Assembly: GCA_019310865.1 (NCBI GenBank)
Contig: JAFDDL010000035.1
Span: forward strand, 1-14,313
Direction: 5' to 3'
Length of the DNA stretch: 14,313 nt
Origin: Deltaproteobacteria bacterium
Lineage (GTDB): Bacteria; Desulfobacterota; Desulfobacteria; Desulfobacterales; JAFDDL01
Below, one piece after another: positions 2 to 14,313 of this stretch (its first letter is position 1; each line of letters begins with the position of its first letter). The translations under genes were made by a program, and so were the position numbers. The notes beneath the pieces were generated by a model, which had not been told where the DNA came from, ran no database searches, and saw only the letters and a list, made by a program, of their open reading frames with translations.

Positions 2-130
2 GAACTCCGTCAAGGTCCCGATAATTCTCGTGTCGGTGGGCCGCACGCCCCACTCTGGGTTTGACACGGCGATAGAGCAGGTGGCATCTCCGCTGTATAT
101 GCAAAAAGGCGGATTCTTGTCCTCGATCTC
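2..130 (-). other. Coding-like stretch in another frame at the broken end of the corrinoid gene
   Basis: From position 130 down to 2 the minus strand is open in a frame different from the corrinoid protein. It encodes 43 residues with a protein-like composition (starts EIEDKNPPFC, contains NPEWGVRPTDTRIIG) and no stop. It does not resemble the missing half of a corrinoid B12 domain, so a simple one-base frameshift is not a good explanation. It looks more like the end of a different sequence joined here. The opposite strand is also open across most of this stretch, so the true direction is uncertain. I do not recognise the family. Confidence 0.25.
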
Positions 131-555
131 CCGGCATCGGCTCCCATGGCCTCGGCCTCTTTGATGAAATCGGCAGAATCCACGTCATAGCCGAGATCTT
201 TTACTTCAAATCCATTGGTTTCCAACATCAATTTAACGATGTTTTTTCCGATTTCGTGCAAGTCGCCCTTGACGGTTCCCAGAACAATCTTTCCTTTTTT
301 GGCGATGCTTTCAAAATCTTCAATCTCCTTGCTGAGCACTTCCACAGCTGCTGACATGTTCTCACCGGCCTGCATCATTTCAGGTAGAAAAATTTCCAGA
401 CGGGAAAATTTATCTCCCACCTCAACCATGACCGCGGTCAGGGAAGAGATGGCCGCCATGGGCGATATGCCGTCATCCAATACGGTTTGCGCCACTTGCC
501 GGGTCTTTTCCGGGTCACTCTTGAGTACCGATTCATGCAAACTTTCCATTAACAT
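10..555 (-). CDS. Corrinoid (B12-binding) methyltransferase protein, 3' part disrupted
   Basis: This is a small corrinoid protein of the MtbC/MttC/MtmC type, which carries a methyl group on cobalamin between a substrate:corrinoid methyltransferase and a second methyl acceptor in the cytoplasm. Residues 1-85 form the helical cap domain seen in this family (pattern LxxGxSPxxxI...GxxFxxxEIFLPEMMQAGxxM). Residues 88-140 begin the Rossmann-like B12 domain, with the cobalt-ligand motif GDLHEIGKN at 97-105 (Asp98, His100, Gly103). Family members continue after 'GAD' with an I/V-GLS-LLTTT-like strand and usually total about 210-220 residues. Here the frame instead turns into unrelated, arginine- and proline-rich sequence after residue about 141 and stops at 181. 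The start at 553-555 is supported by AGGAGG (561-566) five bases upstream. A sigma-54 promoter and an upstream inverted repeat precede it. The product is probably non-functional as it stands; a frameshift, a rearrangement or an assembly join could each explain the tail. Confidence 0.85.
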   Translation of the reverse strand: MLMESLHESVLKSDPEKTRQVAQTVLDDGISPMAAISSLTAVMVEVGDKFSRLEIFLPEMMQAGENMSAAVEVLSKEIEDFESIAKKGKIVLGTVKGDLHEIGKNIVKLMLETNGFEVKDLGYDVDSADFIKEAEAMGADAGRSRTRIRLFAYTAEMPPALSPCQTQSGACGPPTRELSGP

Positions 556-1112: not shown

Positions 1113-1207
1113 GGCGTCACCTCCAAGTCTGTTAACCAGTCACGAATTTTTTCAACCATATATTTCTTTGCTTCCTTGTAATTAAAATTTTTACCTGAGC
1201 TGATCAC
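1109..1207 (-). other. Possible mini-ORF translationally coupled to hicB
   Basis: A 32-codon frame starting at GTG 1205-1207, or 16 codons from ATG 1157-1159, runs through the end of recD and the gap. Its TGA overlaps the hicB ATG as ATGA. The predicted peptide is Lys/Glu-rich and helical-looking (contains YKEAKKYMVEKIRDWL). It may be a small real gene, the remnant of a lost partner, or only a coupling leader. No Shine-Dalgarno was found for it and I do not recognise the sequence. Confidence 0.2.
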
Positions 1208-2987
1208 TCAGGCCCGAGGCGCGCTGCACGGGTGTGGCGATGGCTTCCCGGATAACCAGTTCCGAACCAAAGATGGTGACCGTCTGCTTTGCCCGGGTAA
1301 CAGCCGTGTACAATAGCTCCCGGGTAATCACCGGGGATCGAACCGGCGGCAGCACGAGCAGCACATGATCGAATTCGGAGCCCTGGCTTTTGTGAACGGT
1401 CATGGCGTAAACGCTCTGATGCGCCGGCAATCGGCTCGGGGCCAGGGCGCGCACCCCGTCTGTCCCATCGGGAAAATAGACCCGAATCTCCGGTGAATCC
1501 TTGTCGGGTTTCGCTGCAATCCCCACATCCCCGTTAAACAGGCCCAATTGGTAATCGTTTTCCATGATCATCACCGGTCGGCCTGAATACCAGAGCAAAT
1601 CGCCATCCAGTTGGGTCTGCCCCTGCAGCATCGCCTCTGCTAGGTCGTTTAGCGTCTCGCTACCGAAAATTCCCCGCCGATGGGCGCAAAGAATGCGAAA
1701 ACCGCCCAGGGCCCCAAGCCGGCTTTCCGGATTCACGTCAGTGATCAGGGGCAGGTAATGACGCCGGATAAAGGGGGACAGCACATTCGTCAGCGACCCG
1801 GGCGTTGATCCATCGATCAGGGAAACATCAGCCGCCCCGGGATTGTTCAGACATGCCATCGCATCGTCTGCATCCCCGGATCGAATGCTTTCGGCCAGCC
1901 GTCCGATCCCGCTACCGGGACCGAATCGATAGCTATGGACCAGGTTGACGATGCAATCCTGAATGTTCGGGGCTGCGCAGATATCGCCCAATATTGCACC
2001 GGCGTCCACCGACGCCAGTTGATCCTTGTCCCCCAGGAGTATCACCCGCGTCTCGGGTGCCGCGGCCTCCATGAGCCGGCACATGAGAGACAGATCAACC
2101 ATGGAGGCTTCATCCACCACCAGAACATCGGCCGAAAGCGGATTGTCAAGATTGTGCCGGAATCGGCCGCCACTGCCGGAAGCGCCCAGGAGCCGATGTA
2201 GGGTGACCGCATCCTCGGGAACGGTATTAATGGCGGCAGCAATCGCGCCCTTGCCGGCTTCCGGTGATACCGACCGATTCGGCGCGCCCTTGGCAGCGGT
2301 GATGGCTTCCTTCAAGCGGGCGGCCGCCTTTCCCGTGGGGGCCGCCAGCTCAATTATGGGCATCTTTTGCCGGGTAGCCATTGCTTGGGCAATGATCAAG
2401 GCCAGTATGTTAACCACCGTATGGGTTTTGCCGGTCCCCGGTCCGCCGGACACCACTGTCAAATAGCGCAATACGGCCGTCCGGGCAGCCAGGCGCTGGT
2501 GGTCCGGTACCGATGGCGCCGCGCGATGGGGAAAGAGATCTTTCAACCCTGCTTCGAGTACTAGCGAATCGATCCCGCTAACCCGGCCACGGGATCGCCG
2601 GCGCAGCTGGAACACCAGCCGCTGCTGGTATTGCCAGTACCGGGCCAGATAGAGACGGTTGCGCCGGTCCACCACCAGGGGCGCGGTGGTGGCGCTTTGG
2701 GCCACCGCACCGCTTTCCATCAATGCTTCGAGCCACCGGGTCTTTTCCGGCCATCGAATTTCCGGCAAGGTTTCTCCGGTGTCGGTGATAACCGGTCGGC
2801 CGGCCATTTGGTCCAGATCGACGCAGACATGCCCCTGGGCTGTAAACCGGCTTGCCAATGCTGCCGTCAGCATGACCACTGGATTTTCATCAGCAGCCAC
2901 CCGCCCCAGCGTTTGGGCAAACTGATAATCGAGGTCGGAAAAATACCCCGCGTCATAAAGTTGTTCGATGGTCGGCATCGTTTCCAT
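1191..2987 (-). CDS. recD: RecBCD enzyme subunit RecD (5'-3' helicase)
   Basis: RecD is the fast 5'-3' superfamily 1B helicase of the RecBCD complex and is needed for Chi-regulated processing of double-strand breaks. Starting at METMPTIEQ (2985-2987) it is 598 residues, close to the 608 of E. coli RecD. Motifs in order: N-terminal RecD domain with LYDAGYFSDLDYQFA (10-24); Walker A GGPGTGKT (181-188); motif Ia APTGKAAARL (216-225); DEAS box VVDEASMVD (290-298); motif III LLGDKDQL (317-324); SYRF (352-355); AMTVHKSQGSEFD (528-540); LYTAVTRAK (559-567). All catalytic motifs look intact. The frame is open back to a GTG at 3062, but that extension crosses a period-7 DNA repeat and does not look like protein. 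ATG 3000-3002 and ATG 2976-2978 are other possible starts; no start has a strong Shine-Dalgarno. It follows recB at the end of the recC-recB-recD cluster. Confidence 0.95.
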   Translation of the reverse strand: METMPTIEQLYDAGYFSDLDYQFAQTLGRVAADENPVVMLTAALASRFTAQGHVCVDLDQMAGRPVITDTGETLPEIRWPEKTRWLEALMESGAVAQSATTAPLVVDRRNRLYLARYWQYQQRLVFQLRRRSRGRVSGIDSLVLEAGLKDLFPHRAAPSVPDHQRLAARTAVLRYLTVVSGGPGTGKTHTVVNILALIIAQAMATRQKMPIIELAAPTGKAAARLKEAITAAKGAPNRSVSPEAGKGAIAAAINTVPEDAVTLHRLLGASGSGGRFRHNLDNPLSADVLVVDEASMVDLSLMCRLMEAAAPETRVILLGDKDQLASVDAGAILGDICAAPNIQDCIVNLVHSYRFGPGSGIGRLAESIRSGDADDAMACLNNPGAADVSLIDGSTPGSLTNVLSPFIRRHYLPLITDVNPESRLGALGGFRILCAHRRGIFGSETLNDLAEAMLQGQTQLDGDLLWYSGRPVMIMENDYQLGLFNGDVGIAAKPDKDSPEIRVYFPDGTDGVRALAPSRLPAHQSVYAMTVHKSQGSEFDHVLLVLPPVRSPVITRELLYTAVTRAKQTVTIFGSELVIREAIATPVQRASGLSDQLR

Positions 2988-3030
2988 CTTGTTTACACCC
3001 ATATCATAAGCCGGCAAATCCGGAATCGAA

Positions 3031-3065
3031 GTGCTGAGTACTGAGCACTTAGAACTAAGCACTTT
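3031..3065. repeat. Degenerate heptamer tandem repeat between recB and recD
   Basis: Five 7-base units follow one another: GTGCTGA, GTACTGA, GCACTTA, GAACTAA, GCACTTT. AAGTGCT (3029-3035) and AGCACTT (3058-3064) form an inverted repeat across the block, so the transcript could fold just upstream of the recD start. Short heptameric tandem repeats of this general kind are known between genes in several bacterial groups. Their role here is unknown. Confidence 0.7.
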
Positions 3066-3086
3066 TATTAGGGACAGTTGCCCGGG

Positions 3087-6000
3087 CTAACCCAACAGAT
3101 TCGACAGTTCCCGAATCAGCTTCTCCGGGGGCCGATCCTGAAACACCCCGCTTCCAGGTCCGGCCGACGGCGACATGCCCCGGAGAAACAGGTAGTACAC
3201 CTTTCCAAAATGCGTTTCATAGTTGTAATCTTCAATCCGGCCCGACAGGTATTTGTGAACAGCCGTCACATAGAGATGATACTGCAGAATGTAGTGATGG
3301 TCGCACATAGCCGCCGCCAGGTGATCCGGGCCATAGTCCGTCAACCGGGCGCCCAGGAAATTTGATTTATAGTCGATCACATACCACCGCCCCTGGTGAA
3401 CAAACACCAGGTCGATGAATCCTTTGAAATAGCCCTGAATGGACGGCAGTGTCAGTCGGGACAAGGCCTTCTGATACGATTGCGGAATCCCCGGTTCGCA
3501 ATATTGTTGAAACAACGCCACGAGCTGCCGGCCGGTCACTGGTCGCTGGGCCGGCGTGTCCTTTCCATGGGCCACGGGAAAAATAAACTCCAGCTCGTTG
3601 AGTCGATTGTTGACACAAATGCGATCCAATGACAATTCCGGGTTTTTCCGGTCGAGCCCGGACGTCCGGTCGAGTCCGGTCGACCGGTCAAGCCCGCACG
3701 AAACAATGTCGGAAAGGGCCGTTAAGACCGGTTCGTGCCATCTGCCGGTCTCAAAACCATGGGACGCAAGGTTCCGGTCCACCAGGTCGCTCACCCGGCT
3801 TGCGTCCGTTTCTTGAAAATCGATGTGCTCCAGAAGGGTGTGAAAAAAGGTCCCGGCGCCGGCGCTTCTTTCAAATTCCGCCAGGGGAACCAGCGGCCCC
3901 TGCAGCGCCGATTTTTCGGGTTCCGGCCTTCGGGCTTCCACTGTTTGATCATGATCCTGCCCGGGCTCGGGCGCCAGTTGCGGTGCAGTGGCGCTGGATA
4001 CGAGATGCGAATAACTCGCCACCCGCCATCCGGGCTCCAGAGTTCGCCGCTGCTTTCGGCAGGCTAACGATTGCCCGGATTCGGCGGTGGGTTCATAAGC
4101 CTGGCCCGATTTAACCGACAAGGCCCGAACCGCAATGGTCCCGTTGGACTCGTCAGCCAGGGTTGAAAGATCCTTGGCGATATCCACGTCTGACAGCGTG
4201 GTTGCCGGTTCACCGAAATCGCCAGCGGTTTCACCATTGTTATGAAGCAGGTAGAAGAGAGAAGAGGTTTCAAACCCTTTGACGGCCCCCCAAACCACCA
4301 CACAGTGGTGTCGCGCACGGGTGAGGGCCACGTAGAGAAGCCGGCAGTTTTCCGCATTGGCCTCTTGCCGGGCCAGCGGTTCGTGGGAATCACGTTTTTC
4401 TGACCCCAGATCCAAGGTAGGCCGAAACCCATCGGCCGGATCGTGAAAGGATAGGCCCGAGTCATGATGCAATGGCCGGTCTCCTTCCCAAAGATAGGGT
4501 AGAAAAACAACTGGGTATTCGAGCCCCTTGCTCTTGTGGATGGTTACCAGGCGAACGGTCTGTTCGTCGCTTTCCAGGCGCAGTTCATGGGTGTCCGATG
4601 CCGGACCGTCCCCACTGCGCCGGCGCTGAAACCACTGCATCAGCCCCGCCATACCCAGCCGATCGTCCAGGGCGGCCCCATGAAGCAATTCGGCCAGATG
4701 CTGAAAATTGGTCACCTGTCGCCTCCCGTCCACCCGGCGCAGCAGCGCCGGCAACCGGGGTGTGGTCGAGGTGTCGGTTTGCCCGCTGAATACATCGCTG
4801 ATCATGGGCATAAAACCGTCGCTATGCCAGAGCCGATGCCAGTTGCGAAACTGAATCACCCAGGATGTCCAAGCCCTGTCATCCCGGCCAAGCACATCGA
4901 TATCACACGCCGGAAGGCCAAACAGCTGCGTCTGCAGGGCATTTCGAATACCAATGTCTGACGGATCGGCAGCGGCCCCCAGCACCTGCCATAGTTCAAA
5001 GGCTTCGGTGGATTCAAAAACTGAATCCGCACCGGAAATCACACTGGGAATGGCCAATTCCCGAAGGGCCGACTGCATAAGTCTCGCCTGCCGGTTGGTG
5101 CGCACTAGCACGGCCACATCCTTTGGCGCCACTAGCCGGGGGGATGGATCTTCAATCCTGGCATCGCCGGTCAGTAGATCGGATATTTCCGCGGCCGTTT
5201 TGCCAGGCAAATTCTCGTTGATCCAGCCCTTTGAAATTAAAGCCGGCGCCTGGACCTTTGCATCCTGCCGGGAAAGAAACAATACCTGTAGGGCGGCTGT
5301 CTTTTTACCCTCTCGGGTGATGGCATTCACGGCGTCGGTTCGCGCTTTCACCGGTGAAAAGCGCACCTGCGGAAACAAGAACGGGTTGGCAACCCGGCCA
5401 AACAGGGTGTTCACCGCGCCAATGAGTGACGGATCCGATCGCCAATTGACGTCCAGGGTTCCGACGCGGTCACCGGTATCCCTTGCCGCCTTGAAGTATG
5501 CAAAAATATCGGCGCCGCGAAAGGCATAGATGGATTGTTTGGGGTCACCGATGAGAAAAAACGGCCGGCTGCCCCCCTGAAAGATCCGGTTGAAAATCCG
5601 ATATTGGAGAAGATCGGTATCCTGGAATTCATCAATCAAGGCGGCTGCAAACCGGCTTCGGATGCCGGCGGCCAGATGTTCACCTGCCGGCCCTTGAAGG
5701 GCCCGATCCAGGTCACCGATCAGATCGTCAAAAAACACAACGCCCAGATCCTGCTTGCGTCGGCTCAGGATTTGGCGGGCATCATCGATCAGCTGACGCT
5801 GAAAAGCGATCAACCACCGGCCTGAATACCGGCACAGGTCATCCACTGCTTCGAAAAATCGGTGCCGAGGCTGGGGTGGATCTTTTTTCATGCGATTGTG
5901 AAAGTCAAGCAGCCGGGACTGGGAAAACCGAGCGATACCGGCGTTGTCATCTGGAAACCGGGCCGGATTCGGCATTGACAGATAGTCTTCAGTGGCCGAA

Positions 6001-6755
6001 AGCCAGTTGGGCAGATTCCGCTTGTTATAGCTTTGCCGATTAATCCCTGGATGGGATGTCAGCAAGGTTTTGATTTCTTTCTGATCCGCCGCCCAGATTG
6101 CGCGCGCGGAGTCGTATATCTTTTCAAACACCAGGGGATCGAAGACCGGGACCTGTGAATCGGGAATCAGTTTGAAATCCGGCCGGCCAAGAATGCGGGT
6201 TAAGAAGGGAACCAGACGCGCCGGGTTTAGCAGCTTATCCTGGAGTAGTCGAATCCAGGGAGCCGGCAGGCTAGAAGTGGTGCCGGCCCAAAGATCCGCA
6301 GCCACCTCTTGGTAAAGGGGAAGCTGATCGGCGACCAGTTCCATATCGTACACGGCGCCGCTTTCAAAGGCGTGCTCCTGGAGCACCCGTCGGCAAAAGC
6401 CGTGGATGGTCCAGATGGCCGCCTCGTCAAATGAACTCAAAGCAGCCGTGACCTGCCGAACGGCTTGCGCCTTTTGGGCATCCGAATTGCCAAGCACCTG
6501 GTGTAAAAATGCGTCTTCACAGTTTCCCTGGCGAAGGGCGGCCAGGGCCTCGTGCAGCCGGCTGCGAATTCGGTGCTTGAGCTCCGCCGTGGCCGCTTCG
6601 GTGAAAGTCACGACCAGAATGTCGGACACTGGGTAACCGGCCAGCACCAATCGAATGAACAGGGAGGTAATGGTATAGGTCTTTCCGGTTCCAGCGCTGG
6701 CCTCGATGAGAAACCGATCGGCCAGAGAAACACCGGCTGGATCAAAGGCCCTCAT
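3087..6755 (-). CDS. recB: RecBCD enzyme subunit RecB (3'-5' helicase and nuclease)
   Basis: RecB is the 3'-5' superfamily 1A helicase and the only nuclease of RecBCD, and it also loads RecA. The protein has 1222 residues (E. coli 1180). Helicase motifs: Walker A ASAGTGKT (19-26); Ia VVTFTEAATAELKHRI (48-63); TIHGFC (116-121); II ALIDEFQDTD (372-381); III IGDPKQSIYAFRGAD (402-416); IV NWRSD (437-441); V VRLVTIHKSKGLEYPVVF (734-751); VI RLLYVALTRAR (805-815). The C-terminal nuclease domain holds GTFFHTLLEH (His972), GFIDLVF (Asp1115) and DYKSN (Asp1128, Lys1130). The 13- and 15-residue spacings equal those of E. coli Asp1067, Asp1080 and Lys1082. The ATG (6753-6755) overlaps the recC stop as ATGA and has GGGAGG a few bases upstream, so translation is probably coupled. 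An unusual three-fold GLDR repeat lies at residues 1021-1038. Confidence 0.97.
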   Translation of the reverse strand: MRAFDPAGVSLADRFLIEASAGTGKTYTITSLFIRLVLAGYPVSDILVVTFTEAATAELKHRIRSRLHEALAALRQGNCEDAFLHQVLGNSDAQKAQAVRQVTAALSSFDEAAIWTIHGFCRRVLQEHAFESGAVYDMELVADQLPLYQEVAADLWAGTTSSLPAPWIRLLQDKLLNPARLVPFLTRILGRPDFKLIPDSQVPVFDPLVFEKIYDSARAIWAADQKEIKTLLTSHPGINRQSYNKRNLPNWLSATEDYLSMPNPARFPDDNAGIARFSQSRLLDFHNRMKKDPPQPRHRFFEAVDDLCRYSGRWLIAFQRQLIDDARQILSRRKQDLGVVFFDDLIGDLDRALQGPAGEHLAAGIRSRFAAALIDEFQDTDLLQYRIFNRIFQGGSRPFFLIGDPKQSIYAFRGADIFAYFKAARDTGDRVGTLDVNWRSDPSLIGAVNTLFGRVANPFLFPQVRFSPVKARTDAVNAITREGKKTAALQVLFLSRQDAKVQAPALISKGWINENLPGKTAAEISDLLTGDARIEDPSPRLVAPKDVAVLVRTNRQARLMQSALRELAIPSVISGADSVFESTEAFELWQVLGAAADPSDIGIRNALQTQLFGLPACDIDVLGRDDRAWTSWVIQFRNWHRLWHSDGFMPMISDVFSGQTDTSTTPRLPALLRRVDGRRQVTNFQHLAELLHGAALDDRLGMAGLMQWFQRRRSGDGPASDTHELRLESDEQTVRLVTIHKSKGLEYPVVFLPYLWEGDRPLHHDSGLSFHDPADGFRPTLDLGSEKRDSHEPLARQEANAENCRLLYVALTRARHHCVVVWGAVKGFETSSLFYLLHNNGETAGDFGEPATTLSDVDIAKDLSTLADESNGTIAVRALSVKSGQAYEPTAESGQSLACRKQRRTLEPGWRVASYSHLVSSATAPQLAPEPGQDHDQTVEARRPEPEKSALQGPLVPLAEFERSAGAGTFFHTLLEHIDFQETDASRVSDLVDRNLASHGFETGRWHEPVLTALSDIVSCGLDRSTGLDRTSGLDRKNPELSLDRICVNNRLNELEFIFPVAHGKDTPAQRPVTGRQLVALFQQYCEPGIPQSYQKALSRLTLPSIQGYFKGFIDLVFVHQGRWYVIDYKSNFLGARLTDYGPDHLAAAMCDHHYILQYHLYVTAVHKYLSGRIEDYNYETHFGKVYYLFLRGMSPSAGPGSGVFQDRPPEKLIRELSNLLG
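3642..3695 (-). repeat. Three-fold 18-base repeat inside recB (GLDR units)
   Basis: Residues 1021-1038 of RecB read GLDRST, GLDRTS, GLDRKN, encoded by three 18-base units sharing a CT[T/C]GACCGG core. A fourth partial echo (SLDR) follows at 1042-1045. The block lies between the His972 motif and the Asp1115/Asp1128/Lys1130 core of the nuclease domain, probably in a surface linker. The unit number could vary between strains through slippage. Confidence 0.6.
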
Positions 6756-9700
6756 GGCTTGCCTCCCTTCATTCTCCGGTTTCCAGCTTCGATCTCATTG
6801 GCCAGCAGGGGGCCAAAAACGCGGCCGGCAAGCGCCTCAAATGTTTGCTCCGGCGCTGCGGTAATATCCATGAGGGGATCGGAGACGCCAAATAGGCGCG
6901 AAACGGAAGCATCCGCTGCCTCACCTGGAAAGCCGGGACTGCCCAACCATTTTTTGCGGGCCGCAGCCAGCGCCCTAAATCGGCTTTCCGCACTGTCCGG
7001 CTCTTTCAAGGCAGCCACATAGGCGTGCGAAGCGATGGGGAAAAACCGAGTCGGCTCCCCCTGCCCGGCTGTGAAAATCGCCACCAGATCGATCAAAAGC
7101 TGCTGGGCGATATGGGCAATTGGCTTAAATCCATAGACGTCGGATCCTTTTTTTCCACGCCCCACCATCAGGGACGACACGTCGGCGTCGGGCGCAGATG
7201 CTGCGTTTATCAACAGGTGGTCAATCCAAAGCGCCAGCTTTCGGTGGACCGTAATCTTACCAAAGGTGGTGCAGATTCTGCCTTCGGGCCATCGATTCGC
7301 CACCTGGCCGGTGAGATGGATCGTGTCCATGTCCAGATCAACGGGAATCGGATCGCATTTATCGCCGCTCATTTTCCGGGCAGCAGCTTCCCGGATTGGC
7401 TCGGCCGCCGCTGCCAGGTCTTCAAATAAACAGCTTCCCGCAGCACCCGGCGGAAGCCGGCCGCCGGCCTGAAGGAGCTGATGGACGCATTCTAAATTGC
7501 TTCCAGCCAGCATCTGATCCAGAATGAACTGCCCCAGATGAAAGGTTTCCAGCGAATCGGGCACCAGCGGTTCGCGCTGGTCGATGACCGAAAGATCGTC
7601 CTGTAGCAAAATCCCCAATCGATGGCGAAGCAAATAGGCTGCCGGGGATCGGAAAAAGCGAATGAAATCTTCAACGGAAACCATGGGTGCCCGATCCGGG
7701 GCATCCGCCGGCAAAGCGTCGGGAAAAAATGGCGGCGGCGGCTGGCCAGGCCCTTGTTCCGCCCGGGCCCCGGCCAGATATTCGGTTGAATAGCTGAACA
7801 GGTCCGGCGTCCGGGAAGAAAAATAATCGCTGTGAAAGGGATGAAGCGGGTGGCGTGTCACCAGCTGTGCTTCAAGGGATCGATAACCTTCCGGTAAGTC
7901 AGTCGTGGAAGTGTCGGCCGGACGATACCTTTCACAGAGTGCATCGATCAACTCGTCCACCACCACCGACGGTGGCTTGACGCTGTTGTCCCGAATATCG
8001 CGCCCCACATAGGAGATGATCAGTCGGGATTCAGCCGATAAAATGGCTTCCAGAAACAGATACCGGTCGTCATGGCGAACCGATCGATCACCCGGGCGCG
8101 GCGAGGCGGCAAGCAGGTCAAACCCCAAGGTCGGCTGCCGTCGCGGAAAATCGGCATCGTTCATTCCCATGAGATAGACCACTTCAAATGGAATGCTTCG
8201 CATGGGAAGCAGGTTGCAGAAGGTCACACCGCCGGATAGAAATCCGCGGGTGGCGCTTCGGTCCTCAACCATTTCGGTCACCCACTGGGATACAACGTTC
8301 AGGTCCACCGGATCGCGATAGTCTGCGGTCTCGGTCTGCGTCGCCAGCTGGGCCAGGGTGTCTCTGATAAATTGATGTTCATGGTCATTGCCGGGCTCGC
8401 GGGAGATGAGACCATGAAGCCCCTCGATCAAAATCGCCTGCCATCCGGCGGGTGAATGGGGCTTTGAAAACTGCTTTAGCACGTGAAAAAGCCTGGCGCA
8501 GAAAGTGGACATAAAGCCCACTATTTGCGTATCCTGACCTTCCACATGGGTGATGGGATAAATGCCGCCGAACAGTTCGGGAACGGCCTCATCGGGCATG
8601 GCCATACCGATCAGAAGCCGATCCAGGCCGAATTGCCAGGTGTTTTCGTTAAATTCCGGCTGTCCACAGCGGCTTCGGTGCGCCGCATCCATGGCCCATC
8701 GAACACCGGCATCCACCAGCCATCGGCTTGCGCTCTCCACCGCTTCGGCGCTCAAGCCAAATCGATCTCGTACCGGATCAAGGCTCAGAAAATCGATCAC
8801 ATCCCGAATGGTCAACCGACTTTTGGCAAGAACAAACAGGTGTAAAAAGGCCTTGATCACCAGGGCCTCGTAGCGAATTGCACGATCGGCAATCTGATAG
8901 GGTATAAAGGCCTTCCGGTCGATTGCCCTGTGGCCGAAAATCGCGTCGATGTAAGGTGAATAGCAATCCACATCGGGCACCATCACCGCCACGTCGTGTG
9001 GAAACAGCGCCGGGTGCGTTTCAAACAGGTCCAGCAGCTGATCGTGCAGCACCTGGACTTCGCGCATGGGGCTGTGACAAACATGAATCGATATGGATCG
9101 ATCCGACGGGGAAACCGCCGACGGCGATCGGCCTTGGGACGTCAGGCCCTGCAGATTCAATATGTCGGACTGAAGCCGGTGGAGAAGCGTTGGATGGGTG
9201 TCATCCGACATCGAATCTTCAAACAGATCCGCATCATATTCACCATAGGCGCCCGCCTCTTCGATGATTTGCTGAAATTCCCGTCCGACACGCCCCAGTG
9301 AGGCCAGCAGGGGATGGCCCATTTCCAGGTGTGGGTCCCAGTCACCACCCGGGTTATTGGCATCTGCATCACGCAAGGTGCGGTCGATTTCTTTTTGCGA
9401 TCGGGTATCCGCCCAATACTCCCGGCACGGGCTCAACAGGAACAGATGGACCTGCACCGTATCGGGCAGCGCCGCCAATACGTTTATGTATAGCGGCGGC
9501 AGGGTGGAAATGCCAAACAGCGATATTCGGGGCGGCAGCCCGTCAAAGCCGGCCGTTCCATTTTTCAACGCCTTGAAATATCGGTCCGCCACCGATGCGA
9601 TATGTATGTCCCCTAAGTGCGCCCGGATCGCATTCCACAGATGCGGTTGCCAGCGCATGTCGGCTCGAATCAGATTGGCCGCCTGGGAATCCACCTGCCA

Positions 9701-10144
9701 ACGTTGCACCATGTCCGGCCGGTAGACAGCGTACTGATCAAACACCCGGGCAATCCGTCGGGATAGCTGGTAGCGTTTGATCATGCGCCCATCGCCGGAA
9801 AGATAGCGTTTCAGGAGACCGAAATCTTTGTGAGACAGCAGCGACGGCAGCAGGGACAAAATGGCCCATGTCATGGTTTTCGGATTGCAGGCGGATGTGT
9901 CTTCGGGATCCACGCCAAGGGTTTTGGAAAAAATGTTTTCAATCAAGGTTCGGGGAAACGGATGGTAGCCGTTGGCCCAGATTCCCAGCCGCTTGGACAG
10001 GGCCATTTTGAGCCATACGGCGATCCCCTGGGTCTGTATTCCGACCCACTCTGCGATCCCGGGTGCCGGCAAGGGATCTTTCAGGATGTCGGCGAGGGCG
10101 TCCGCCAGTTTTTCGAGCCGGTTGCTGCGATGCAGATGAAGCAT
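6752..10144 (-). CDS. recC: RecBCD enzyme subunit RecC (Chi recognition)
   Basis: RecC holds RecB and RecD together, splits the DNA strands and reads the Chi sequence in the 3' strand; its helicase-like domains are catalytically dead. The protein has 1130 residues (E. coli 1122). Family signatures: the N-terminal WVGIQTQGIAVWLKMALSKR (33-52) followed by GIWANGYHPFP (54-64), equivalent to the QSNGMARWL...FPFP region of E. coli; then GGVTFCNLLPMRSIPFEVVY (638-657) and GMNDADFPR (660-668). Next come GFDLL (674-678), DDRYLFLEAILSA (692-704) and SYVGRDIRDNS (711-721), nearly identical to the E. coli block. No intact Walker A was seen, as expected. The ATG at 10142-10144 has only a weak Shine-Dalgarno. 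It is the first gene of the recC-recB-recD cluster, with no ptrA protease gene between recC and recB as there is in E. coli. Confidence 0.95.
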   Translation of the reverse strand: MLHLHRSNRLEKLADALADILKDPLPAPGIAEWVGIQTQGIAVWLKMALSKRLGIWANGYHPFPRTLIENIFSKTLGVDPEDTSACNPKTMTWAILSLLPSLLSHKDFGLLKRYLSGDGRMIKRYQLSRRIARVFDQYAVYRPDMVQRWQVDSQAANLIRADMRWQPHLWNAIRAHLGDIHIASVADRYFKALKNGTAGFDGLPPRISLFGISTLPPLYINVLAALPDTVQVHLFLLSPCREYWADTRSQKEIDRTLRDADANNPGGDWDPHLEMGHPLLASLGRVGREFQQIIEEAGAYGEYDADLFEDSMSDDTHPTLLHRLQSDILNLQGLTSQGRSPSAVSPSDRSISIHVCHSPMREVQVLHDQLLDLFETHPALFPHDVAVMVPDVDCYSPYIDAIFGHRAIDRKAFIPYQIADRAIRYEALVIKAFLHLFVLAKSRLTIRDVIDFLSLDPVRDRFGLSAEAVESASRWLVDAGVRWAMDAAHRSRCGQPEFNENTWQFGLDRLLIGMAMPDEAVPELFGGIYPITHVEGQDTQIVGFMSTFCARLFHVLKQFSKPHSPAGWQAILIEGLHGLISREPGNDHEHQFIRDTLAQLATQTETADYRDPVDLNVVSQWVTEMVEDRSATRGFLSGGVTFCNLLPMRSIPFEVVYLMGMNDADFPRRQPTLGFDLLAASPRPGDRSVRHDDRYLFLEAILSAESRLIISYVGRDIRDNSVKPPSVVVDELIDALCERYRPADTSTTDLPEGYRSLEAQLVTRHPLHPFHSDYFSSRTPDLFSYSTEYLAGARAEQGPGQPPPPFFPDALPADAPDRAPMVSVEDFIRFFRSPAAYLLRHRLGILLQDDLSVIDQREPLVPDSLETFHLGQFILDQMLAGSNLECVHQLLQAGGRLPPGAAGSCLFEDLAAAAEPIREAAARKMSGDKCDPIPVDLDMDTIHLTGQVANRWPEGRICTTFGKITVHRKLALWIDHLLINAASAPDADVSSLMVGRGKKGSDVYGFKPIAHIAQQLLIDLVAIFTAGQGEPTRFFPIASHAYVAALKEPDSAESRFRALAAARKKWLGSPGFPGEAADASVSRLFGVSDPLMDITAAPEQTFEALAGRVFGPLLANEIEAGNRRMKGGKP

Positions 10145-10328: not shown

Positions 10329-10353
10329 AAAGCTGAAAATGGCATGGAAAAAT

Positions 10354-10389
10354 AAAAGCGGGAGGACCCACTACGATCCACCCGCTTTT
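10354..10389 (-). terminator. Symmetric rho-independent terminator closing the peptide cassette
   Basis: AAAAGCGGG (10354-10362) and CCCGCTTTT (10381-10389) form a perfect 9-bp stem around an 18-base loop that can extend with a GGA/TCC pairing. On the minus strand the stem ends in a T-rich tail (CGCTTTTATTTTT). On the plus strand it ends in CTTTTTGTTG, so it may work both ways. It begins 27 bases after the stop codon of the repeat peptide and separates that unit from recC. Confidence 0.85.
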
Positions 10390-10416: not shown

Positions 10417-10602
10417 TCAGACAGGTGCGTGACATGCAGGTGCATGGCATGCGGGCGAATGGCAAGAGGGTGCATGACACGACGGTGCGTGGCAGGACGG
10501 CGCATGGCATGACGGAGCATGGCATGACGGAGCATGACATGACGGGGCATGACAACTGGCCGCTGAAGACACCTTCTTTTCTACCTTCTTGGTTTCCAGC
10601 AT
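10417..10602 (-). CDS. SCHAP-repeat peptide, candidate RiPP precursor
   Basis: This 61-residue peptide is unlike any family I can name. Residues 1-15 form a short charged leader (MLETKKVEKKVSSAA; four Lys, two Glu). Residues 16-60 are nine tandem pentapeptides: six SCHAP, one SCHSP, two ACHAP; a single Val ends the chain. Cys, His and Pro are invariant in all nine units. Every DNA unit is different, with mostly silent changes: five serine codons (AGT, TCA, TCC, TCG, TCT), four alanine, three proline and both Cys and His codons are used. That is a mark of selection on the protein. AAAGGAGGTGATT (10605-10617) gives a near-full anti-16S match four to five bases before the ATG. It lies 34 bases after a cobalamin-type radical SAM gene and 27 bases before a terminator. 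I infer that the enzyme modifies the repeats, at Cys or at neighbouring His/Ala/Pro. An unmodified metal- or thiol-binding peptide is the alternative. Confidence 0.85.
   Translation of the reverse strand: MLETKKVEKKVSSAASCHAPSCHAPSCHAPSCHAPSCHAPSCHAPSCHSPACHAPACHAPV
10423..10557 (-). repeat. Nine 15-base units encoding the CHxP ladder
   Basis: Nine contiguous 15-base units with no spacers encode the pentapeptide ladder. On the minus strand each follows TCN-TGY-CAY-GCN-CCN, apart from AGT in unit 1, TCG (Ser) at position four of unit 7 and GCA (Ala) at position one of units 8 and 9. No two units are identical at the DNA level. Confidence 0.9.
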
Positions 10603-10604
10603 TC

Positions 10605-10617
10605 AATCACCTCCTTT
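10605..10617 (-). promoter_or_regulatory. Exceptionally strong ribosome binding site of the repeat peptide
   Basis: The minus strand reads AAAGGAGGTGATT, pairing with nearly the whole anti-Shine-Dalgarno tail of 16S rRNA, with AGGAGGTGA ending four bases before the ATG. It decides the reading frame and start, and it suggests the peptide is made in excess over the enzyme encoded upstream, whose own start has no clear site. Confidence 0.9.
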
Positions 10618-10636
10618 CTAGTATTTTTATTGTTGC

Positions 10637-12655
10637 TCATTCGAGAACGATAAAATTCAGTTCCCGAAGTCCTTCCATCGCCTCCTGACAGGCGTGGGTA
10701 AAGGCGGAAATATCCATTCCTTTCCCGTGCAGCGAATACATCTGACGGGAAATTCCACTGACGGGTGTCTGCCCGTCGCACCGGGACAGAAAATCGATCC
10801 CGAACGCGTTGACCTGGGTTACCGCCAGTTCGTTGCCCGCCTGGATGAAAATCAGAGACGTGGGTGTTTCCGAATACTCAGGACGGAATTGATCGGATTT
10901 CATATCGGCAATAATGGCCGGCAAATCGTATGTAAAATGCCCGATGACCAGGTTCGGATTTTGCCGAGGCCGCCACTGCCGGCAGCCACTCAGGTCCACC
11001 GTAGCAGTGGGCGGAATGTTCGGGAATTTCCCCACTTCAATGGCCTTTGTTTCATAGTCAACAACCGCTGGTAAATGGCGCCAACTGATCACGGGACTAC
11101 GTTGAAATCGCGTTGAGGCATATTGGGGGAAATATCGATAGCAGTCCGCCGGGTCCAAGGTGAGCGCCTTTCGGTCCCGTTCGTCTCTGAGCCACCCAAG
11201 CCAGTCAAAAAACAGGTCGCTCACCGAAGCATCCGTGGCCATTGCCAGCAAAAGCATCGACTTGGGATACAGGTTCACCATAATCGGGAAAAAACCGACC
11301 AGATCATACAGCCGCTTAAGATCCATGGCACGGGTGGGCAGATTATAAAAACTGCTGAACACGTCCCGGTGCCCATCGATGAGGGAATCATCGGAAGCCA
11401 GGCGGCGTCCATCGTCAAACTCGAGACCCATGGAAAAATAGGTATCAACCTGTCGAACCAGCTCAGACAAATACCGCGTATAGAGTTCAGTTCCCGGCAG
11501 AACCGTCGGAAGCTGAAGAAGCGGATTGCTGTTTCCCTGAACCCCGGTTTTCAATGCCAGCGTCAGGGTCGCATCCACATCGGCTTTTTCTTCTTCCGGG
11601 AACCCGATCACAAAGCTCAAGGTGGGCACCATGCCCTGGTCGGTGGTTTCCCGGACACGCTGGTAGAGAATATTATCGTCTATCTGCTTTCGAATAAACG
11701 CCAGCGTCTTCTTAGACCCGGAATCGATTCCGTAGCACATTGATTCGCAGCCGGCCGCCTTCATCAGGCGAAGCATATCGGCATCCACGGTATCGAGCCT
11801 GGAGATACAGTACCATGGCAGCCGGTTGAGCTTTTCATCGATGATCGCGTGGCAGAAATCCTTCACGAAGCGATGGTTGGCGGTAAATTGGTCATAGGCA
11901 AGAAGAAAACATTCCGCGCCCCGCTCATGGGCAAGATGGCGCATCTCTTTCACGAGTCGATCGATGGAATACGTCCGCGTTCGTCGTCGCCAAAGAATCG
12001 ACTCGGAACAATAGACGCATCGATGGGGACAGCCCCTGCCCACTTCTATGATGGCGATGCTTCGTGGCAGCCCGCACGCATCACGATACTGCGAAAGTGG
12101 CGGTAAAAAGCGGTAATCGGGCAGGGGAAGCGCATCCAGGTTGTCCAGAAGCGGCCGGTCTTCGGTTCTGATGATTTCATCATTGTCTCGGTAAGTGATA
12201 CCGCCGACTGATTTCAAGTCCTTCCCAAGAGCAACAGCGGTTGTGAGTTCCTGAAACGTCACTTCGCCTTCGCCACGCACCACCACATCGATACCGGGAA
12301 ACCGTGCCAGGGTCTCTTTGTCCACAAAAGAGGCGTTATGCCCGCCGATCACGATACGGGCGGAGGGCTTCAGGTCCTTGATGCGCTGGGCGATCTGCAC
12401 AACTGCCGGGTAGGTGGTGCACTGGGCGGAAAACGCGACCAGATCCGGTGAATCGGTCAGAATTCGTCTTGCGCATTGATCATAGATGGTGGCGTCAAGG
12501 GTCAATCTGTTTTGACGAATCGCCAATACAAAATCGTGGATGACCACCTTGTGCTCGGGACTTTGAATCTGTGTCGCCAGGTTGACAAGACCCAGCGGTG
12601 GCAGGTTATACAGGGACGCAAAATAAAACGGCGGGAAAACAAGCGTTACATTCAT
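10637..12655 (-). CDS. B12-binding radical SAM enzyme with C-terminal PqqD-like domain (putative RiPP maturase)
   Basis: The protein has 672 residues from ATG 12653-12655; a GTG two codons upstream is the other possible start, and neither has a clear Shine-Dalgarno. Residues 1 to about 140 form a Rossmann-type cobalamin-binding domain (NLPPLGLVNLA at 17-27, VIGGHNAS at 102-109, VRGEGE at 126-131) without the DxHxxG ligand motif, as in base-off enzymes of this class. Residues 195 to about 400 form the radical SAM barrel with GRGCPHRCVYC (Cys209, Cys213, Cys216 binding the 4Fe-4S cluster) and FVIGFPEE (348-355). Residues 400-560 are a helical region I cannot assign, with no SPASM-like cysteine cluster. 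Residues about 565-672 contain VNAFGIDFLSRCDG (615-628), then helix-rich sequence to the end, matching the layout of PqqD-type RiPP recognition domains. Enzymes of this class often methylate unreactive carbons. The repeat peptide directly downstream is the likely substrate. Domain calls are firm for B12 and rSAM, moderate for PqqD-like. Confidence 0.85.
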   Translation of the reverse strand: MNVTLVFPPFYFASLYNLPPLGLVNLATQIQSPEHKVVIHDFVLAIRQNRLTLDATIYDQCARRILTDSPDLVAFSAQCTTYPAVVQIAQRIKDLKPSARIVIGGHNASFVDKETLARFPGIDVVVRGEGEVTFQELTTAVALGKDLKSVGGITYRDNDEIIRTEDRPLLDNLDALPLPDYRFLPPLSQYRDACGLPRSIAIIEVGRGCPHRCVYCSESILWRRRTRTYSIDRLVKEMRHLAHERGAECFLLAYDQFTANHRFVKDFCHAIIDEKLNRLPWYCISRLDTVDADMLRLMKAAGCESMCYGIDSGSKKTLAFIRKQIDDNILYQRVRETTDQGMVPTLSFVIGFPEEEKADVDATLTLALKTGVQGNSNPLLQLPTVLPGTELYTRYLSELVRQVDTYFSMGLEFDDGRRLASDDSLIDGHRDVFSSFYNLPTRAMDLKRLYDLVGFFPIMVNLYPKSMLLLAMATDASVSDLFFDWLGWLRDERDRKALTLDPADCYRYFPQYASTRFQRSPVISWRHLPAVVDYETKAIEVGKFPNIPPTATVDLSGCRQWRPRQNPNLVIGHFTYDLPAIIADMKSDQFRPEYSETPTSLIFIQAGNELAVTQVNAFGIDFLSRCDGQTPVSGISRQMYSLHGKGMDISAFTHACQEAMEGLRELNFIVLE

Positions 12656-12755
12656 TATCACACACTGCTATTGGCAGTATCGACGGGTTACATGTGTGTA
12701 TTTTTTCCAAGTCTTGCTTATACGTCCTACCATAGATGCCGGGAGCGTGCAATAA

Positions 12756-12779: not shown

Positions 12780-12811
12780 CCCCGTGATGTGAATTCCGTC
12801 TGATTAACCAT

Positions 12812-12907
12812 GCCCGTTTTCATATCTGAAAACCAAGTGTGCTTAGGGCTCAAATCCGCGCGAAACGGGCAAGCCTTAAACCCACCAGAGGCGGGCAAGA
12901 TTTTAAC
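12812..12907. repeat. Inverted and direct repeats upstream of sbcB
   Basis: GCCCGTTT (12812-12819) can pair with AAACGGGC (12863-12870). It overlaps a small hairpin TTTTCA-TATC-TGAAAA (12817-12832). The segment starting CGGGCAAG at 12866-12881 recurs at 12892-12907 (13 of 16 bases the same, 26-base period), so the left arm could pair with either copy. CCCACC-AGA-GGCGGG (12881-12895) is a further near-perfect hairpin. This could be a folded 5' leader of sbcB or a degenerate REP-like element. I recognise no known riboswitch consensus. Confidence 0.4.
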
Positions 12908-12935
12908 TTGCATTTACAAGCGGTTACAGGTATGC

Positions 12936-14313
12936 ATGGGTATGGCAACCTATCTTTTCTACGACATTGAAACCTCCGGGCTCAACAAGGCCTTTGATCA
13001 GATTCTGCAATTTGCAGCCATCCGCACGGACCGGCATTTTAACGAAATTGATCGGCACGAGGTGCATGTCCGGCTGCGACCGGATGTGATCATTTCCCCC
13101 CTGGCCATGGCAACGCATATGATTTCCGTCGCTGATGCTCATCAGGGCGATGTGGAATACGAGGCGATCCAACAAATTCACGACTGGCTAAACACCCCTG
13201 GAACCATCAGCATCGGTTACAACTCCCTGGGTTTCGACGATGAATTTTTAAGGTTTGCCTTTTACCGAAACCTGTTGCCGCCGTATACGCATCAGTATAA
13301 TAATGGTTGCAGCCGCATGGACGTGCTGCCCATGACGGTTGTCTACCGGCTATACAAATCGGATATACTCCAATGGCCCGAAGTAGACGGAAAACCGTCA
13401 CTGAAACTGGAGTATCTCAATGATACCAACAAACTCTTCGATGGCCGTGCCCATGACGCCCTTTCCGATGTGGAAACCACACTTGCCCTAGCCCGAACAT
13501 TATCCCGGGAAGTTAAAATCTGGCAGTTTTTAAACGATTATTTTGACAAAGCCATTGAGCGGAAGCGAACGGAAAAGCTTCCGGAAGCATTTCAAACGGC
13601 TGCGGGTATTCACCGCAAAGGAATCATGATCAGCCACAAGGTGGGTGCAGAGGCAAACTACCAGGCCCCTGTTTTGTATATCGGCGATTCGGTTCCGTAC
13701 AAGAATCAGACCCTCTGGCTGCGGCTGGATCTTCCGGAACTACAGCAAACCACGTCCGAAACCCTTTCCGAAACCACCTGGGTGAAAAGAAAACGCTTCG
13801 GAGAACCACCGTTCATTCTGCCGCCCCTTGCCCGATACAGCCGGCGGCTTCGAAAGGAAAGCATGCAGCTGGCGAAAGAAAATCTACGGTGGCTGTCAGC
13901 AAATCCGAAAACTTTTCTGGAAATTGTTCATTACCACCAGCATTTCAGATATCCGGACGTCCCGAATCTGGATACCGATTCGGCCCTGTATCAGATGGGA
14001 TTCCTATCACGATCCGAAGAAAAGCTTTGCCGGCGGTTTCATGCGGCGGATTTACATCACAAGGCCGAACTCATCGAAACCTTTTCCAAACCCGAAACCC
14101 GCGAGCTGGCCCGTCGTATTCTGTTTCGAAATTACCCCGAGGCCTTGAGCGAACCGCAGAGAAACTATTCCGAACAGTATTTGAGACGGATCAATCCCCA
14201 ACGGGAAGATGATGCGCTGGTGGACTATCGTGGGGAAAAACGGGTGATGCCCGCTGCAGCACTGAAGGAAATCGAGCAAATCAGACATGAAGGAACCCTG
14301 CAAGAAAAAAAAA
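12936..14313 (+). CDS. sbcB: Exonuclease I (ssDNA-specific 3'-5'), 3' end outside window
   Basis: ExoI degrades single-stranded DNA from the 3' end and takes part in mismatch repair and in limiting recombination intermediates. The frame is open from ATG 12936 (MGMATYLFYD) to the window end: 459 codons, against 475 in E. coli, so only a short C-terminal piece is missing. DEDDh catalytic residues are all present: Asp10 and Glu12 in FYDIET; GYNSLGFDDEF with Asp101/102; His173 and Asp178 in HDALSD. The five-residue His-Asp spacing equals E. coli His181/Asp186. QFAAIRTD (25-32) and FYRNLLPPY (109-117) match the E. coli enzyme closely. AGG (12928-12930) five bases before ATG 12936 favours this start over ATG 12942. 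It is divergent from the radical SAM gene. The window ends in a run of nine A's within the frame. Confidence 0.93.
   Translation, partial: MGMATYLFYDIETSGLNKAFDQILQFAAIRTDRHFNEIDRHEVHVRLRPDVIISPLAMATHMISVADAHQGDVEYEAIQQIHDWLNTPGTISIGYNSLGFDDEFLRFAFYRNLLPPYTHQYNNGCSRMDVLPMTVVYRLYKSDILQWPEVDGKPSLKLEYLNDTNKLFDGRAHDALSDVETTLALARTLSREVKIWQFLNDYFDKAIERKRTEKLPEAFQTAAGIHRKGIMISHKVGAEANYQAPVLYIGDSVPYKNQTLWLRLDLPELQQTTSETLSETTWVKRKRFGEPPFILPPLARYSRRLRKESMQLAKENLRWLSANPKTFLEIVHYHQHFRYPDVPNLDTDSALYQMGFLSRSEEKLCRRFHAADLHHKAELIETFSKPETRELARRILFRNYPEALSEPQRNYSEQYLRRINPQREDDALVDYRGEKRVMPAAALKEIEQIRHEGTLQEKK

Follow-up and report, generated by a model that had tools for sequence, protein, structure and literature searches.

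A 14,313-nucleotide stretch of DNA from a Deltaproteobacteria bacterium (contig JAFDDL010000035.1; the whole stretch is referred to below as the window) possesses genes for a B12-binding radical S-adenosylmethionine (SAM) enzyme and for a short peptide composed of a leader and nine tandem.CH.P pentapeptides. This pair, i.e. a radical SAM enzyme and its predicted ribosomal substrate, probably makes ovothiol-type thiols (5-thiohistidines) in an oxygen-independent way. In related genomes, genes for three further proteins lie near the pair: an OvoM-like methyltransferase (10 of 12 loci), an M19 dipeptidase (8 of 12) and a pyridoxal phosphate (PLP) enzyme resembling C-S lyases (4 of 12). They suggest that a small molecule is excised from the peptide. 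These neighbours argue against the metal- or thiol-binding ladder staying in the cell that had been suggested in a preliminary description of this DNA, and the dipeptidase of the relatives speaks against its statement that no protease is adjacent.

The enzyme, its peptide and their conservation

The enzyme was counted from the ATG that agrees with its homologues (a GTG is present at position 12661). Both its B12-binding domain (64.4 bits, cut-off 32.1) and its Radical_SAM domain (67.4 bits, cut-off 29.5) pass the Pfam thresholds, and no other Pfam domain does so. The CX3CX2C motif is unchanged in all 26 aligned sequences; with this motif and the two domains, the protein is by its sequence a B12-dependent radical SAM enzyme. 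The AlphaFold 2 (AF2) model of the whole enzyme (predicted local distance difference test score, pLDDT, 90.6) has the fold of CysS, AprD4, OxsB and TsrM according to a fold search, and TokK is likewise among the matches. The nearest NCBIfam model is ApyD, an enzyme of ribosomally synthesized and post-translationally modified peptides (RiPPs), with 262 bits against a cut-off of 750. Among the matches listed, the homologues are mostly full-length with 53-60% identity, and the family comprises 734 homologues at E<=1e-30 out of 7993 scored candidates.

As the whole-enzyme fold search barely tested the C-terminal domain, this domain was modelled and searched alone. Its AF2 model (pLDDT 94.3) was matched by Foldseek/VIA to TglHI, TbiB1 with leader, the recognition element of PbtF, NisB and PqqD, with Foldseek E values never below 1e-3. 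Furthermore, Pfam PqqD is found in 18 of the 26 aligned enzymes at E<=1 (best 1.5e-4), the window's own protein being unmatched. On this basis, a RiPP recognition element is predicted at the C-terminus of the enzyme.

The peptide starts with MLETKKVEKKVSSAA, continues with the nine.CH.P units and ends with V. The preliminary description had listed a B12-binding radical SAM gene, a 34-base gap and a 61-residue peptide of nine [S/A]CH[A/S]P repeats, and all of this is confirmed by the open reading frames (ORFs) and Pfam. The 34 bases between the enzyme and peptide genes contain the Shine-Dalgarno sequence AAAGGAGGTGA, whose 11 bases are identical ahead of all 11 ladder peptides examined, in line with the strong ribosome binding site claimed previously. 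The shared terminator claimed along with it, a GC-rich inverted repeat followed by a T run 3' of the peptide gene, is plausible only, because an automatic scan, which gave a shorter stem at this site, counted 4 terminators in the window and so does not exceed the shuffles (mean 3.3). When the window was shuffled 200 times by mononucleotide, the longest run of.CH.P units was one, compared with the nine observed. The nine repeats vary at synonymous positions, a pattern that suggests selection at the protein level and not a fresh DNA expansion. No signal sequence was recognized in the peptide by eye.

Features of the window and the evidence on which each is placed
Feature	Positions	Strand	Basis
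B12-binding radical SAM enzyme, predicted peptide maturase, 672 amino acids	10637..12655	-	translation, Pfam, homologues, AF2 model
B12-binding domain, residues 16-137	12245..12610	-	Pfam
Radical SAM domain, residues 203-366	11558..12049	-	Pfam
CX3CX2C motif (4Fe-4S cluster), Cys209/Cys213/Cys216	12008..12031	-	alignment
Predicted RiPP recognition element, PqqD-like (C-terminal domain, residues 562-672)	10640..10972	-	Pfam in relatives, AF2, Foldseek
Shine-Dalgarno sequence AAAGGAGGTGA upstream of peptide	10607..10617	-	sequence
Precursor peptide gene, 61 amino acids	10417..10602	-	ORF translation
Leader MLETKKVEKKVSSAA	10558..10602	-	conserved in relatives, roughly ML.[IV]K.VEKK.S.AA
Core of nine.CH.P pentapeptides in tandem, each a proposed thiohistidine unit	10423..10557	-	repeat count
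Plausible terminator, GC-rich inverted repeat and T run	~10346..10389	-	by eye
recD, recB, recC (one run)	1191..10144	-
Exonuclease I-like gene	12810..14312	+
Corrinoid-protein ORF (TIGR02370-like)	10..555	-	family match up to about residue 138

The conservation of the pair was surveyed in 395 genomes, which represent the phylum of genome G001 and need not belong to the window's own phylum; G001 was reached via a single distant enzyme relative found in a contig scan with one protein. With a profile of 26 sequences (threshold E<=1e-120; at most the three best first-look candidates scored per genome), the enzyme was detected in 12 of these genomes. When all candidates were scored in 12 other genomes, no enzyme match exceeded 193 bits. 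The peptide gene is located immediately downstream of the enzyme gene in all 12 enzyme-bearing genomes. Ten of these peptides are CHxP ladders of 4-9 units with the same leader as in the window (those of G332 and G185 are identical), and two are shortened: in G256 and G391 a leader of the same kind is kept and the peptide has shrunk to MLKVKEVENKVLYTDVCHESSDQASACHVPT and ...MVKDVEEREMATAACHESSRQASTSHVPT, in which two or one CH are left. Cys, His and Pro are retained in 75 of 75 units of 11 peptides (the window's and the ten ladders), and positions 1 and 4 vary; although the units were counted by the.CH.P pattern, every core continues unbroken to the final residue.

A peptide profile matched 13 of the 395 genomes, ten of them strongly, and all ten strong matches fall in enzyme-bearing genomes; the others are G256 and two weak matches, G043 and G359, which were judged spurious (period-15 DNA or arginine-rich repeats, no leader). 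In G043, one reading shows CHTP repeats, and genes for the methyltransferase and M19 are also present there, at a contig start; no close enzyme relative was found in this genome with all candidates scored (best 179 bits). The conserved association of radical SAM gene and peptide expected in the preliminary description is therefore borne out. It had named two observations that would speak against the association, enzyme homologues consistently devoid of the peptide and peptide homologues without the enzyme: the peptide is present in 12 of 12 in our sample, and no strong peptide match lies outside enzyme-bearing genomes among the 395 surveyed. Moreover, a search of 5.8 billion proteins returned 16 peptides, 14 of them new (the other two were query members), from sources including Syntrophobacter sp. 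SbD1, a Syntrophobacteraceae metagenome-assembled genome (MAG) and a Spirochaetota MAG. In their cores, His follows 68 of 77 Cys, and most exceptions sit outside the CH slots. An encoded putative precursor with a conserved leader adjoins the predicted radical SAM maturase, as expected of a RiPP system. Note that counts of the pair in draft assemblies may be too low, as contigs may break at the repetitive peptide gene.

Genes that accompany or replace the pair

Downstream of the peptide gene, on the same strand and at a distance of at most 0.7 kb, ten of the 12 enzyme-bearing genomes encode a methyltransferase domain fused to a Trm112-like ribbon (N-terminal zinc ribbon). Its nearest solved relatives are OvsM (113 bits), OvoA (108 bits) and OvoM (105 bits), the next methyltransferase following at 46 bits. 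The substrates of OvoM and OvsM are 5-substituted histidines (5-thio- and 5-selenohistidine, according to the molecule names of the PDB entries). TIGR04345 (ovoA_Cterm) is matched by all four methyltransferases scanned, with 84-114 bits. The methyltransferase is found at E<=1e-40 in 44 of the 395 genomes, all 12 enzyme-bearing ones included (hypergeometric P 8e-13, were the genomes independent). In the two genomes with shortened peptides (loci L072, 6081-9124, and L073, 379-3661), its gene lies apart from the pair. Its neighbours in L072 encode a phosphatase resembling CysQ on one side and a member of the Sfum_1244 family (DUF6866) on the other, and those in L073 belong to the same families as judged by similarity. 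The contigs of L060 and L061 start (first 250 bases) shortly before a methyltransferase gene that is followed by M19.

M19 dipeptidase (>=300 bits) is encoded in all 12 enzyme-bearing genomes, compared with four of the 32 genomes that have the methyltransferase and lack the enzyme; GliJ is among its solved relatives. The class V PLP enzyme is similarly distributed (9/12 versus 1/32) and resembles SufS, C-DES and EgtE. The EgtE model TIGR04343 gives 45-88 bits for the three PLP proteins scanned, under its 400-bit cut-off, and models of the SufS family outscore it, yet also remain below cut-off. Desulfurases carry their persulfide cysteine in the C-terminal third. In four aligned copies of the PLP enzyme, the motif lysine (taken as the PLP lysine) is invariant and the C-terminal third is devoid of a conserved cysteine, as would be expected of a C-S lyase and not of a desulfurase.

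In the genomes lacking the radical SAM enzyme, the methyltransferase has other partners. An acetylene-hydratase-like metallopterin enzyme (nearest solved relative acetylene hydratase, 418 bits) adjoins it in 23 of these 32 genomes and never in the 12 that have the radical SAM enzyme (loci L062, L063, L065-L069, L071, L075, L077, L078 and L048 show this arrangement). One of the 23 neighbours, in G276, is cut by a contig end. By score and position, 24 genomes carry the metallopterin protein, which in G393 is encoded on another contig. The peptide profile did not find a CHxP peptide in the 23 genomes. The metallopterin ergothioneine synthase (MES) from Caldithrix abyssi, which combines an acetylene-hydratase-related N-terminal module with a fused desulfurase, forms a C-S bond on a histidine derivative independently of O2 (matched text of PMC9516567). 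It thus resembles the route proposed here in making this bond without O2 in anaerobes, and differs in belonging to another enzyme family, using a free substrate and yielding ergothioneine (a 2-mercaptoimidazole). In the 23 genomes, the equivalent reaction would fall to a protein related to the metallopterin module of MES; by analogy, the metallopterin neighbour is a candidate 5-thiohistidine synthase, the counterpart of MES for ovothiol.

The cut-off for the N-terminal sulfoxide synthase domain of OvoA (TIGR04344) is not reached in any of the 12 enzyme-bearing genomes. At E<=1e-5, the domain is detected in 32 of the 44 methyltransferase genomes, including four over the cut-off (G026, G089, G099 and G203); none of these four bears the radical SAM enzyme, and G089 also has the metallopterin neighbour. 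The remaining enzyme-less methyltransferase genomes are G006, G043, G118, G172, G297 and G393; in G006, as in G043, the genes for the methyltransferase and M19 are at a contig start. One methyltransferase family is thus paired with alternative, known or predicted histidine-sulfurating systems, which suggests that the enzyme/CHxP pair fills the same slot. The PLP enzyme and the dipeptidase would accompany the peptide version because only there would cysteine and the peptide backbone need to be removed.

Proposed route and its alternatives

From the genes, their order, conservation, co-occurrence and family relationships, which are observed, and from the recognition domain and folds, which are predicted, we infer the following reactions. 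The leader (K.VEKK.S.AA) would dock on the C-terminal recognition element of the enzyme, and the B12/radical SAM centre would bond the cysteine sulfur to C5 of a histidine imidazole, repeating this for every CHxP unit and so as many as nine times. The partner would most simply be the adjacent histidine, although a bond between a histidine and the cysteine of the next repeat was also considered; the adjacent one is favoured because single-CH peptides occur. General peptidases and the M19 dipeptidase of the relatives would then free S-(5-histidyl)cysteine, the class V PLP enzyme would split the C-S bond of its cysteine to give 5-thiohistidine, and the OvoM-like methyltransferase would methylate a ring nitrogen, leading to ovothiol A. 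Of the modifications suggested in the preliminary description, i.e. C-methylation, a thioether or another crosslink, the thioether fits best. We lean, by a little, towards the view that a ribosomal repeat peptide is stamped with Cys-S-His bonds and then digested to many copies of the thiol, so that these anaerobes would be "translating" ovothiol. This would be a third, O2-independent way of thiohistidine sulfuration, beside OvoA and the predicted metallopterin synthase that shares the methyltransferase.

The component parts are of known kinds (a RiPP maturase with recognition element, an ovothiol methyltransferase), and the logic is PQQ-like (PQQ, pyrroloquinoline quinone). Precedents exist for thioether formation by a B12/radical SAM enzyme (ThnL; excerpt of PMC13331322) and for a thia-amino acid built on a carrier peptide (pearlins; excerpt of PMC9303977). 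Among the matches listed from the open-licence literature (subscription papers and most preprints lie outside it), none links a precursor peptide to ovothiol or thiohistidine, and none describes a radical SAM route to ovothiol; in PMC9016710 and PMC7419502, ovothiol appears solely in the title of a reference.

Several observations weigh against this route. The window itself has no relatives of the methyltransferase, the M19 dipeptidase or the PLP enzyme, and the downstream steps are taken from the related genomes. If the sulfur bridged neighbouring Cys and His residues, the resulting ring would be tight, nine-membered by our count, and its strain is a concern. One metagenome peptide (P0135) has SCNAP where a CH unit belongs. 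The methyltransferase misses the TIGR04345 cut-off (best 114 versus 170 bits), is located elsewhere in two of the 12 genomes, where the peptide has only one or two CH, and co-occurs with the enzyme in genomes that are related, so that P values overstate their independence. M19 is clustered with the pair in eight of 12 loci and not in all, and it also adjoins the methyltransferase in the metallopterin-type genomes G209 and G253. The PLP gene is absent from three of the 12 enzyme-bearing genomes and clustered in only four. As to the alternative partners, the metallopterin neighbours (~690 amino acids) are without the desulfurase half found in MES, weaker relatives of the metallopterin enzyme are present elsewhere in four of the 12 enzyme-bearing genomes (best 541-700 bits), and the OvoA domain exceeds its cut-off in four of the 44 methyltransferase genomes.

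Ladders of four to nine units would suit a multivalent peptide, and the peptide itself might be the end product, with Cys-His thioethers or thiohistidines, possibly N-methylated on the peptide, serving as a thiol, redox or metal-binding factor. The zinc ribbon of the methyltransferase could bind such a peptide, and the apparent lack of a signal sequence agrees with this proposal. The presence of the dipeptidase in all 12 genomes and its clustering in eight do not, nor does the C-S-lyase-like PLP enzyme in nine, and single-CH peptides occur (L010). Furthermore, the same Trm112-methyltransferase stands beside the metallopterin enzyme in 23 peptide-less genomes, where a free amino acid is the likelier substrate. 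We consider a peptide end product unlikely. Metal-binding peptides are often repetitive, and both Cys and His can serve as ligands, as would suit a metallothionein-like metal or thiol store that is modified incidentally or never. Such a store is highly improbable in view of the absence of strong peptide matches outside enzyme-bearing genomes among the 395 surveyed, of the predicted recognition element of the enzyme, and of the single CH of some relatives, which would be a poor metal binder.

Known B12/radical SAM enzymes are mostly methyltransferases. This, together with ApyD as the nearest NCBIfam model (262 bits, cut-off 750) and with TsrM, CysS and TokK among the fold matches, would favour an enzyme that adds a C-methyl group to every repeat (on Cys, His or Ala/Pro), the methyltransferase and the lyase then having other substrates; the prevalence of methylation in this subclass is also stated in the matched part of PMC13142503. 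We regard this as decidedly unlikely. Sulfur transfer from Cys to the His ring on the peptide could also lead to a thiohistidine other than ovothiol A (2-thiohistidine, a selenium analogue or a conjugate). Indeed, the methyltransferase resembles OvsM, the selenohistidine enzyme, about as closely as it does OvoM, and 5-thiohistidine can also undergo acetylation (excerpt of PMC12631010). Since both OvoM and OvsM use histidine substituted at position 5, and the ladder contains cysteine and not selenocysteine, such an end product appears very unlikely.

Known systems, flanking genes and significance

The proposed formation of ovothiol by the radical SAM pair shares with the OvoA/OvoB/OvoM (OvoC) pathway the logic of sulfur transfer from Cys to His and a homologous terminal methyltransferase. 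OvoA, an iron enzyme that oxidatively joins free histidine and cysteine, consumes O2; here, a B12/radical SAM enzyme and a ribosomal peptide would substitute for it. The steps of OvoA, OvoB and OvoC are taken as described in an excerpt of PMC12631010. None of the peptides scanned matches a precursor model of the PqqA or MftA type, which places the pair outside PQQ and mycofactocin biosynthesis. Those systems use SPASM-type enzymes and modify one unit per peptide, whereas the enzyme here is of the B12 type and would act on as many as nine tandem units. In gliotoxin biosynthesis, a fungal pathway whose sulfur comes from glutathione, a dipeptidase (GliJ, of the M19 family and a solved relative of the M19 enzyme here) and then a C-S lyase (GliI) free the thiol, without any ribosomal peptide. 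ThnL and other B12 radical SAM enzymes have the same domains and, for solved members, the same fold, and we know of no C-terminal recognition element in ThnL-type enzymes. ThnL differs in acting on a substrate that is not a ribosomal peptide; it forms a thioether in carbapenem biosynthesis (matched text of PMC13331322). In pearlins (3-thiaglutamate, 3-thiahomoleucine), a thia-amino acid is likewise made on a carrier peptide and then freed, and a recognition element is involved. The tmo cluster includes a B12 radical SAM enzyme as well (matched text of PMC9303977). There, PEARL ligase adds the amino acid post-translationally and tmo has a DUF692 protein, whereas here the residues are encoded.

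The peptide shares with CefA (NF038108) a cysteine at each fifth position. A match to an already named family was a further observation that would have counted against novelty in the preliminary description; CefA was missed by ten bits (window peptide 20.3 bits, cut-off 30), and membership was rejected. Four of ten peptides scanned match the CefA model at all (best 20.3 bits), and its cut-off is exceeded in none of 297 genomes of the phylum. The sole CefA match at E<=0.001 outside enzyme-bearing genomes, in G006, was discarded as the opposite strand of a pentapeptide-repeat gene. Note that the antisense strand of a pentapeptide-repeat gene (L029, ~4270-5508) yields ORFs with Cys at every fifth position and weak CefA matches, which is a trap for searches. 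The term 'Cys-every-fifth' was not found among the literature matches listed.

In the window, the pair is flanked by recD, recB and recC on one side and by the divergent exonuclease I-like gene on the other; as far as can be told, these genes are unrelated to it. Near the window end, residues of the corrinoid-protein ORF past ~138 do not match its family, so a frameshift or an assembly break is possible there. An Rfam search of the window gave no match.

If the proposed route is true, a small-molecule antioxidant would be derived from a ribosomal polyprotein of Cys-His units, and a radical SAM enzyme would catalyse the coupling of sulfur to imidazole. This would explain the role of the hitherto uncharacterised family of 734 homologues and make the metallopterin enzyme, as the alternative partner of the methyltransferase, directly testable too. 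Anaerobes would then possess an O2-free route to ovothiol, which would raise the question of what purpose ovothiol serves without oxygen.

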